Assembly: GCA_945883795.1 (NCBI GenBank)
Contig: CAMCYC010000007.1
Location: 1 to 64,000, forward strand
Reading direction: 5' to 3'
Length of the DNA stretch: 64,000 bases
Source of the DNA: Sulfurimonas crateris
GTDB taxonomy: Bacteria; Campylobacterota; Campylobacteria; Campylobacterales; Sulfurimonadaceae
The position numbers and the translations under genes were made by a program. This document shows positions 43,263 to 46,266 of the stretch, one piece after another (the first letter of the stretch is position 1; each line of letters opens with the position of its first letter). The notes beneath the pieces are model-generated. The model was given only the letters and a program-made list of their open reading frames with translations, did no database searches and had not been told where the DNA came from.

Positions 43263-44198
43263 ATGATTCAAATGCTTATAACTTTAGGATTGTTGCTACA
43301 TATAAATTTGTTGGCTGATTTAGTCGCTGATGGAATCAAAGCATATGATAAAGGGAATAAACAACAAGCACTTAAACTATGGACAAAAGCTTGTAATAGT
43401 GGAGATATGGATGGTTGTAGCAATTTAGGTCTTCTCTATGATGATGGAATTGGAGTTAAACAAGATAAAATTAAAGCTAAAGAATTTTATACGAAAGCTT
43501 GTAATGGCGGAAAAATGAGAAGTTGTAGTAATCTCGGTGTTTTGTATGAAACTGGTGATGGAATAGAACAAGATAAAATGAAAGCTAAAGAACTCTATAC
43601 GAAAGCATGCGATGGTGGAGAGATGCGGAGTTGTAGTAATCTGGGAGTTCTCTATGAAACTGGAGATGGGATAAAACAAGATAAAACTCAAGCCAAAGCG
43701 CTCTATGACAAAGCTTGTAAGGGTGGTGAGATGCGAAGTTGTAGCAATCTGGGGCTTTTATATGATGATGGAAATGGGGTTAAACAAAATAAAAATAAGG
43801 CTAAAGAATTTTATACCAAAGCTTGTGATGGTGGACATATGAGTGGTTGTTATAATTTAGGTTTTTTATATGATGATGGAAATGGTCTAAGACAGGATAA
43901 AACTAAAGCCAAAGCATTTTATACTAAAGCTTGTGATGGCGGGAATATAGGCGGTTGCTACAATTTAGGAATTTTATATTTTAATGGCGATGGCGTAAGA
44001 CAAGATAAAACTAAAGCTGGTGAGTTGTTTGCTAAAGCCTGTGATGCTGGAAATATAGGTGGTTGTTATAATTTAGGAATTTTATATTTTAATGGCGATG
44101 GCGTAAAACAAGACAAAAGTAAAGCTAAAGAGTTATTCGGTAAAGCTTGTGATGGTGGAAGCATGGGCGGTTGTAAAAACTATAAAATATTAAATTAA
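43263..44198 (+). CDS. secreted cysteine-rich Sel1-repeat protein (Hcp-like)
   Basis: Signal peptide plus eight 36-aa units KAC-x7-C-x-NLG-x-LY. Confidence 0.95.
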   Translation: MIQMLITLGLLLHINLLADLVADGIKAYDKGNKQQALKLWTKACNSGDMDGCSNLGLLYDDGIGVKQDKIKAKEFYTKACNGGKMRSCSNLGVLYETGDGIEQDKMKAKELYTKACDGGEMRSCSNLGVLYETGDGIKQDKTQAKALYDKACKGGEMRSCSNLGLLYDDGNGVKQNKNKAKEFYTKACDGGHMSGCYNLGFLYDDGNGLRQDKTKAKAFYTKACDGGNIGGCYNLGILYFNGDGVRQDKTKAGELFAKACDAGNIGGCYNLGILYFNGDGVKQDKSKAKELFGKACDGGSMGGCKNYKILN

Positions 44199-44204
44199 TG
44201 GTGA

Positions 44205-44247
44205 GAAATTTACAGGCTTTCCCAAGCAGCGGGGAAAGTAAATTTCC
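44205..44247. repeat. Imperfect inverted repeat/hairpin
   Basis: GAAATTTAC-AGGC-TTTCCC ... GGGAAAGTAAATTTC arms with a 4-nt bulge. Confidence 0.6.
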
Positions 44248-44256
44248 AATATGATT

Positions 44257-44354
44257 CTTTTAGTGCCTGACACCCTTTTGTCTTTTATTGTCTTTTAGTG
44301 CCTGACACCCTTTTGTGTGACACCCTTTTAGTCTTTTTGACACCCTTTTGAATT
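44257..44354. repeat. Cluster of four TGACACCCTTTT repeats (two extended as CTTTTAGTGCCTGACACCCTTTTGT)
   Basis: Exact 12-mers at 44268, 44303, 44318, 44338. Confidence 0.9.
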
Positions 44355-44399
44355 TAAAGTACATGAAAGGGTTTGTTTAAAACTACATCAGAGTAAATG

Positions 44400-44828
44400 C
44401 TAATTGTAACTATAACTCCAACCCGTAAGACTTTTTACTTTTGCTTCATCATAATTATCTGAATCTGCTAAAAAGTCTATCACATGCATGAGGGCGTAAG
44501 GGATAGACCTTTGGTCTGCAGGATTCACTAAAAGCATTGGCATAGGTGTTTCTTGTATGCTCATAGCAAAGCCAACAGGCATAATTTGACTCATTACCTC
44601 TATAGGGTTTATAATTTCGTATTCTTGCAAAAACTTTGTCAACACGAGTGGTTTTATCTCCTCTGGTAGAGATACGCTTGTATTTAAAAAAATTGTAAAA
44701 TGGATTGGGTTGTTTTTGAAATGTTCTGGAGAAGGTGTTGCCATGAAAATGTAGTCTACATTCTCTAAATATTTTTCTATCTCTTGTACTTTTAAATATT
44801 CATTTGTTTTTATCGCTTGGACTTGCAT
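44400..44828 (-). CDS. hypothetical protein (142 aa)
   Basis: Long ORF with plausible codon use; family not recognised. Confidence 0.6.
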   Translation of the reverse strand: MQVQAIKTNEYLKVQEIEKYLENVDYIFMATPSPEHFKNNPIHFTIFLNTSVSLPEEIKPLVLTKFLQEYEIINPIEVMSQIMPVGFAMSIQETPMPMLLVNPADQRSIPYALMHVIDFLADSDNYDEAKVKSLTGWSYSYN

Positions 44829-44903
44829 TATAATACCTCTTTTATGTTTTTTAAATGAATTTTATCATATAGTTGTCTGTTTTTATAAATTTAAAAAAAT
44901 TTC

Positions 44904-44929
44904 ACTAGCATGGAATATAAATTGCTAGT
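44904..44929 (+). promoter_or_regulatory. Candidate sigma54 promoter inside an inverted repeat, upstream of GGDEF gene
   Basis: ACTAGCA-TGGAATATAAAT-TGCTAGT; GG(44912)-N10-GC(44924). Confidence 0.4.
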
Positions 44930-44994
44930 AGGAATTGATTAAATACCTTATGGTTGAATAAAAATATAATATTGTTATAAATTTGGAGATATAT

Positions 44995-46266
44995 TTGTAT
45001 TTCATCGAAACTCTCAAGCTTAGACAAAAGCTTTTTTTTCTTTTTATTTTAATTACACTTGGGCTTATTCTTGTTGGTACTATGAGTGCTTTAAACATTA
45101 ATTCTATGAAAAAGCATATAGATTCAGTTTACTTTGGTTCTTTAATCCCAGTGCATGAACTGAATGAAATATTGCAAACCTATCATGGAAGTTTGGTAGG
45201 TAGCGTGTATTCGATAAAAAGTGCTGGAAAAAGTAAAAGTGAAATTAATTCTGACATAGTATCTTCGATAGCTAAAATAGAGAAAATTTGGAAAAGTTAC
45301 GAAACCCATTTTAAGCGTGATGAAGAACTTGCGTATATTGATTATGTATCTTTAGAGATACAATCTATAAATACCTATTTTTTAAAAATTCTTAAGGCTT
45401 CAGATGAGGGTAAAGATTTGACTCTTATCTCTATTAACTCTCTTGAAAAACATATGTTACAAATCCATGCAGTTCTCAAAAAACTTATAAATTATGAAAT
45501 TGAGATAGCAGAATACGAAAGGAAAACTTTTTTATCTACTTATAATGTCACAATGATTCAGGTAGGGATTATATTTGCTTTTATAATTATAGGCGTTTTA
45601 TTTATCTCTTTTTATGTTTTTAGAAGTATTCAAAAAGACCATTCACACCTTGAAATAGCAACGAGAAAACTTAAAATTGTAAATAAAAAATTAGAAAATG
45701 TTTCCTATACAGATTCTTTAACTACACTCCATAATAGAAGATATTTTAATCTTATCTGTGAGAGAGAACTCAAACGAGCCCAAAGAATTAATAGTTATAT
45801 AACTTTTATGATGTTAGATATAGATTATTTCAAGCAATACAATGACACTTATGGTCATCCTCAAGGGGACGAAGCGCTTAAAGCTGTTGCAAAAGTTTTA
45901 AAAGATAATCTTAAACGACCAAGTGATTTTGTCTTTAGATTAGGTGGAGAAGAGTTTGGTGTTTTACTTACACAGACAAATGTAGAAGATAGTGTGACTT
46001 TAGCAAAAGAGATTTGTAGTGCAGTTAGAAAAGAAGAGATTGAACATGAAGGTTCTAAAGTACATCAATTTTTAACTATCTCTATTGGTGTTGTTTGTTG
46101 TATAGCAGATGAAGCACTTCTAGAAAATATTTTAGTATCTCGTGCTGATGCGATGTTATATAAAGCCAAAGAAAATGGGCGTAATAGTTGTGAAGTAAGC
46201 ACCTATATCACTGAAGCTACTCCTCAGATTGTAGCAAAAAAAGAGGAAAAAAAACTCAGTGCCTAG
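44995..46266 (+). CDS. diguanylate cyclase with N-terminal 4-helix-bundle-like membrane sensor
   Basis: TM-flanked sensor; DSLTTLHNRRYFN...FRLGGEEFGVLL (GGEEF); TTG at 44995 follows GGAGA. Confidence 0.94.
   Translation: MYFIETLKLRQKLFFLFILITLGLILVGTMSALNINSMKKHIDSVYFGSLIPVHELNEILQTYHGSLVGSVYSIKSAGKSKSEINSDIVSSIAKIEKIWKSYETHFKRDEELAYIDYVSLEIQSINTYFLKILKASDEGKDLTLISINSLEKHMLQIHAVLKKLINYEIEIAEYERKTFLSTYNVTMIQVGIIFAFIIIGVLFISFYVFRSIQKDHSHLEIATRKLKIVNKKLENVSYTDSLTTLHNRRYFNLICERELKRAQRINSYITFMMLDIDYFKQYNDTYGHPQGDEALKAVAKVLKDNLKRPSDFVFRLGGEEFGVLLTQTNVEDSVTLAKEICSAVRKEEIEHEGSKVHQFLTISIGVVCCIADEALLENILVSRADAMLYKAKENGRNSCEVSTYITEATPQIVAKKEEKKLSA

Follow-up and report, generated by a model that had tools for sequence, protein, structure and literature searches.

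Truncated short repeats in an intergenic cluster of Sulfurimonas crateris as a probable orphan mini-array of recognition sites of a RAYT-like Y1 transposase

A cluster of short repeats between two genes of Sulfurimonas crateris is probably a small orphan array of the sites recognized by a RAYT-like tyrosine transposase, a Y1 (HUH) enzyme of the TIRYT, or TnpA_Y1 subclass 2.1, type. The cluster lies in a 64,000-nucleotide stretch of contig CAMCYC010000007.1, here called the window. The link between the repeat family and a TIRYT-like Y1 transposase is well supported by comparison with related genomes.

The exact 12-mer TGACACCCTTTT occurs four times in the window, starting at 44268, 44303, 44318, and 44338, just as a sequence-only reading of this DNA had described. 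Allowing one mismatch gives five matches, a number reached by 0 of 100 dinucleotide shuffles (mean, 0.46). Read on the minus strand, all four copies share the starting edge AAAAGGGTGTCA and differ in their end points, with two running on to AAAAGGGTGTCAGGCACTAAAAG and two ending early; the earlier remark that two copies are longer than the 12-mer is borne out by an identical 26-nt stretch, TCTTTTAGTGCCTGACACCCTTTTGT, at 44256 to 44281 and again at 44291 to 44316. All parts of the cluster are assigned to the minus strand. A full-length copy, AAAAGGGTGTCAGGCACTAAAAG (44257 to 44279), and a second full-length copy, AAAAGGGTGTCAGGCACTAAAAGAC (44290 to 44314), are recognized by their sequence and as members of the identical 26-nt family; they are separated by a partial tail copy, AATAAAAGAC (44280 to 44289), that belongs to direct-repeat family D3, in which the partial copy measures 13 nt. 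Two truncated copies follow, AAAAGGGTGTCACAC (44315 to 44329, with the 12-mer at 44318 to 44329) and AAAAGGGTGTCA (44338 to 44349, the 12-mer itself), and between them lies an 8-nt piece, AAAAGACT (44330 to 44337), which by its letters resembles the tail of a full copy. Since the copies follow one another and some are cut short, a small array describes the cluster better than a single element does; with that correction, the proposal of a nonautonomous or relic element fits the failure to find a transposase of the RAYT-like kind in this genome. The T-rich flanking pieces might point toward mere coincidence in the placing of an A/T-rich 12-mer, but genome counts refute this reading: the shuffles, a reversed control that is zero in 99 genomes, and the presence of the same core beside transposases elsewhere all speak against it.

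The cluster is intergenic. It sits between a Sel1-repeat gene (43263 to 44198, plus strand) and a convergent gene for a 142-aa protein (44400 to 44828, minus strand), and no open reading frame (ORF) of at least 80 aa lies over it, in line with the earlier statement that no ORF explains the repeats. A strong hairpin at 44205 to 44247, directly 3' of the Sel1 gene stop codon, is probably an ordinary terminator; the DNA fold of 44198 to 44250 has −10 kcal/mol (z, −3.4), and the left arm is unique within the genome.

The earlier suggestion that the motif be counted genome-wide was followed in the S. crateris assembly (2.41 Mb in 126 contigs, with the window on a 65.8-kb contig). One further exact 12-mer is found (C17:376-387), and a search with GTGCCTGACACCC allowing up to two mismatches returned 17 matches, against 2 when the sequence was reversed as a control; the motif is therefore scattered through the genome, and the cluster is not its sole site. 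About ten dispersed related copies are present; nine of the ten that we checked overlap no ORF of at least 80 aa, and the tenth overlaps an 82-codon ORF. A transposase from a relative, used as a query, found no matching-type enzyme in this genome, and the Y1_Tnp domain (PF01797) is represented only by three short C-terminal fragments: C7:65721-65828 (L010), which reaches the contig end and has an ending like that of an IS200-type TnpA, C5:24579-24668 (L011), and C125:161-259 (L012). With no matching transposase found, sequence alone ties the window cluster to such an enzyme; since the assembly is fragmented, an unassembled transposase copy may exist. IS200/IS605 was considered as the source of the repeats and rejected, given these short fragments and an IS200 model score of about 23 bits for the transposase linked to the motif in relatives.

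Positions 44355 to 45000, used as a query to follow the locus in relatives, have a match in 110 of the 135 genomes from this genus. In 19 relatives whose loci we inspected over about 1.5 kb on each side, the 142-aa gene was found with neither the cluster nor the Sel1 gene next to it. Identity at this gene reaches only 76% in the best relative, and thus the exact insertion boundary could not be drawn. These data bear on the idea that the repeats work within transcripts, for instance as terminators or as RNA-stability hairpins between convergent genes, with no link to a transposase. Such a role would suit the almost exclusively intergenic position of the copies in this genome and the location of the cluster between convergent genes. 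However, the cluster was not found beside the 142-aa gene in the relatives inspected, the motif is missing from most of the 99 genomes compared, the full window copies fold weakly, and the copies in relatives concentrate around a transposase. We regard this explanation as very unlikely.

The transposase linkage comes from those 99 genomes, comprising S. crateris itself and its relatives. The 13-mer RGTGCCTGACACC is present in 10 of them, and the reversed 13-mer, used as a control, in none. Copy numbers range from 63 in G092 through 12 in G036, 11 each in G037 and G039, 8 in G040, and 6 in S. crateris (G000) down to 2 each in G041 and G057 and 1 each in G004 and G011. Six genomes (G004, G010, G037, G039, G040, and G092) encode a close subfamily of Y1 transposases of ∼250 aa, 58 to 100% identical to the G040 protein, and five of these six contain the motif (hypergeometric P = 2e-5, with the kinship of the genomes ignored). 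In the four genomes with complete coordinates, the distance to the transposase gene is at most 10 kb for 27 of 31 motif copies, versus 0.27 expected. The nearest upstream copy is 55 to 62 bp from the transposase gene at 10 of 13 loci, 85 bp at two, and 639 bp at one, and its orientation matches that of the gene at all 13, although these loci are partly nonindependent (L114 equals L090, on the same G092 contig; L092 shares the contig of L110; L117 and L118 come from one MAG). The proposed association with RAYT-like transposases, which was to be checked by linkage to Y1_Tnp genes, is thus supported in relatives, the genome of the window offering just the three fragments. Two genomes depart from the pattern: G010 has a 58%-identical transposase and zero copies of the 13-mer, and G036 has 12 motif copies and no close transposase that we could find in a genome that is 85% complete. 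The association extends to 56 Y1 genes from a genome scan, related to the linked transposase, around which (up to 1 kb) we counted 116 GTCAGG-type heptamers versus 4 in reversed controls; at least two such heptamers occur at 35 of the 56 loci versus none for the control.

Four of the arrays in relatives (L091, L116, L117, and L154) lie directly 3' of genes whose large protein products contain DUF4214, RTX calcium-binding repeats, or both, and the region downstream of such genes is perhaps a common insertion place. Near another Y1 transposase gene (L134, 5141 to 8200), there are 47 repeats with a period of ∼66 bp; we rejected these as relatives of the motif, as they form an unrelated CRISPR-like array. 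No relatives of the linked transposase were found in a scan of viral_contigs for phage carriage, and plasmid matches to it are only partial and below 60% identity.

What kind of enzyme is the linked transposase? Its residues N58, H59, Y60, and H61 and Y118...N122 P123 are invariant in both alignments, and it carries the two motifs expected of TnpA_Y1 subclass 2.1/TIRYT, namely the HUH motif NH[YF]H or NHVH together with Y...NP; the published YIELNP reads YIERNP in the consensus of the linked transposases. The NCBIfam REP_Tyr_transpos (RAYT) model is the best family, at 72, 72, and 68 bits for three members, below its cutoff of 80, and the IS200 TnpA model gives 23 bits for two members versus a cutoff of 55. 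HTH_23 and other HTH models match the C terminus, all below their cutoffs, and the predicted structure (mean pLDDT, 87) has C-terminal helices. The best structural match of the predicted fold is 4er8, an Escherichia coli RAYT with a REP hairpin, followed by the ISDra2 and IS608 TnpA proteins. By its motifs, the linked transposase appears to fit TnpA_Y1 subclass 2.1/TIRYT rather than the canonical RAYTs, which corrects the earlier naming of REP-associated tyrosine transposases.

A profile of the repeat was built from 94 copies chosen by an exact GTGTCAGGCAC core, so that conservation of the core is built in and that of the edge is not. The consensus consists of an A-run, GG, TGTCAGGCAC, and a T-rich right side. 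Information content drops steeply at the step between −8 and −9 and declines more gradually on the right, giving a sharp left edge (the A-run and GG) and a softer, T-rich right side. The GT[AG]G foot of canonical REPs, GTAG or GTGG, is not found in the 94-copy profile. A perfect variant, AAAATGGTG-TCAGG-CACCATTTT, folds at −7.5 kcal/mol, and both full window copies form weak folds. The hairpin arms do not covary between copies (mean, −3.52 kcal/mol for the real copies versus −3.60 with the arms re-dealt), and support is thus limited to a short inner stem. On the upstream side of the 13 loci, the repeat nearest to the transposase carries GGTGTCAG or GGGTGTCAG, not GGGGWSAS.

Truncated tandem copies are also found around the transposase genes of relatives, at a larger scale. 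At L115, four fragments of the 5' end of the transposase gene come before the full gene, each starting at or just past a motif, and similar head-anchored fragments occur at L116 (two), L154 (two), L112 (one), and L091 (one). The right ends of these copies differ by hundreds of bases, while the left edge is fixed, and the window cluster shows the same forms in miniature. Partial motifs exceed chance, too: of 94 full motifs, 13 have a left-half copy up to 34 nt upstream (shuffle mean, 0.46; maximum, 3) and 9 have a right-half copy up to 40 nt downstream (shuffle mean, 0.09; maximum, 1). Tandem duplication with a fixed left breakpoint and a variable right breakpoint explains the truncated copies. 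Nesting of the transposase element into itself was rejected; it would have left 3' remnants downstream, but only two transposase fragments lack the 5' end, versus about ten 5' ends.

That the tandem copies are anchored at the head and truncated at the tail suggests a fixed cut site at the left edge of the repeat. In the mechanism that we envisage, single-stranded DNA carrying the short hairpin GTG-TCAGG-CAC would be bound by the transposase, which may cut at this edge, after which the motif-headed strand would be copied or joined to another end. Repeated rounds could produce head-anchored, tail-truncated tandem copies: short ones of a few bases, as in the window, and long ones that include hundreds of bases of the transposase gene, as in relatives. 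In S. crateris, the enzyme may have been lost, may lie in an assembly gap, or may have acted from elsewhere. The main rival holds that the repeats once spread with the transposase and that slippage during replication, at the short hairpin and the A/T runs, formed the local cluster, with no transposase acting here. Slippage would account for left-half and right-half copies alike, whose breaks frequently fall within or close to the loop, A-rich junctions would place short microhomology on hand, and no transposase is found in this genome. However, simple slippage does not predict a fixed left edge with right ends that lie hundreds of bases apart, as seen in relatives. We think slippage a real but lesser possibility and favor an array produced by the transposase.

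Several relatives have genes for hydrophobic microproteins in alternation with the repeats; the proteins form two families of ∼75 to 87 aa and one of 32 to 45 aa and, from their sequences, look like tiny membrane proteins. When fragments of one gene are tallied separately, of the 50 microprotein ORFs that have a motif no more than 1 kb away, 49 are oriented as the GTGTCAGGCAC strand and one is opposite. The same families also occur in other genomes without the motif, and they are absent from the genome of the window. Two motif-free cases have neighbors that we could name by eye: in G077 (L234), gene pairs stand in tandem behind an apparent secretion-ATPase gene, and in G065 (L236), they stand beside an apparent Rhs-core C terminus. 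Our guess is that the microproteins at these two loci are immunity proteins; PADLOC gave no match that would link microproteins to defense, and PHROGs gave only weak matches, to families of unknown function. It is possible that the arrays captured the microprotein genes. More speculatively, the Y1 transposase and its repeat could form an integron-like platform in relatives, in which repeats head movable units with tiny membrane-protein gene pairs that are gained and lost as single-stranded DNA, and the window cluster could be a remnant of the platform or of its repeats; we consider this rather unlikely. If microprotein genes do move with the repeat, a class of transposases known for tiny selfish repeats would serve as a platform for gene shuffling as well.

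Among the papers listed for TIRYT in Sulfurimonas and for RAYT with cassettes, none describes such arrays, and none of 20 of the 393 matches to the repeat sequence is relevant; these searches covered open-licence papers only, so the negative result is weak evidence. The arrays of relatives resemble integron cassette arrays in their small same-orientation genes, the repeated site between them, and an adjoining recombinase-type gene; they differ in that the enzyme is a Y1 transposase and not an integron integrase, the same microprotein genes also occur repeat-free, and unit mobility is hypothetical here. With IS200/IS605, the linked enzyme shares a related HUH Y1 fold, IS608 and ISDra2 TnpA being among its structural matches. 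Unlike in IS200, which has Y...Q, its Y motif ends in NP, and the IS200 model score is far below the cutoff. Canonical RAYT/REP systems (Nunvar et al. 2010, PMC2817692; 4er8) are closer: they also combine a dispersed, intergenic, short palindromic repeat with a Y1 transposase, and the E. coli TnpA_REP 4er8 is the best structural match of the enzyme. Here, however, no GTAG or GGAG foot is seen, the RAYT score is below the cutoff, the outer stem lacks covariation support, and the genome of the window has far fewer copies. Many dispersed intergenic copies tied to a Y1 gene, as in REP-like sequences, are found in relatives; S. crateris has about ten copies, with no transposase found.

The closest likeness is to the TIRYTs and TIRtrons, in which terminal inverted repeats with GGGGWSAS flank the gene (Di Nocera et al. 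2013, PMC3733652), and to TnpA_Y1 subclass 2.1, a group equated with TIRYT by Quentin et al. (2018, PMC6006769). Shared features are an HUH Y1 protein of ∼240 to 250 aa with NHYH and Y...NP, flanking repeats that seem related to GGGGWSAS (near distant relatives GGGGTCAG, and GGGTGTCAG in the present case), and the occurrence of repeats as dimers and clusters; the weak C-terminal HTH match, below the cutoff, may be a further likeness. Unlike TIRYT repeats, those described here appear to lie mainly in a single orientation rather than as terminal inverted repeats and alternate with microprotein genes in the relatives studied. Quentin et al. found no REP-like repeats for subclasses 2.1 and 2.3 in automatic and manual searches (PMC6006769); the hairpin-type core and the GTCAGG-type repeats beside subclass 2.1-like enzymes contrast with that survey. 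Judging from the enrichment around the 56 Y1 genes (116 versus 4), the repeat, e.g., AAAAGGGTGTCAGGCACTCTTTT, is a candidate DNA substrate for subclass 2.1-like enzymes.
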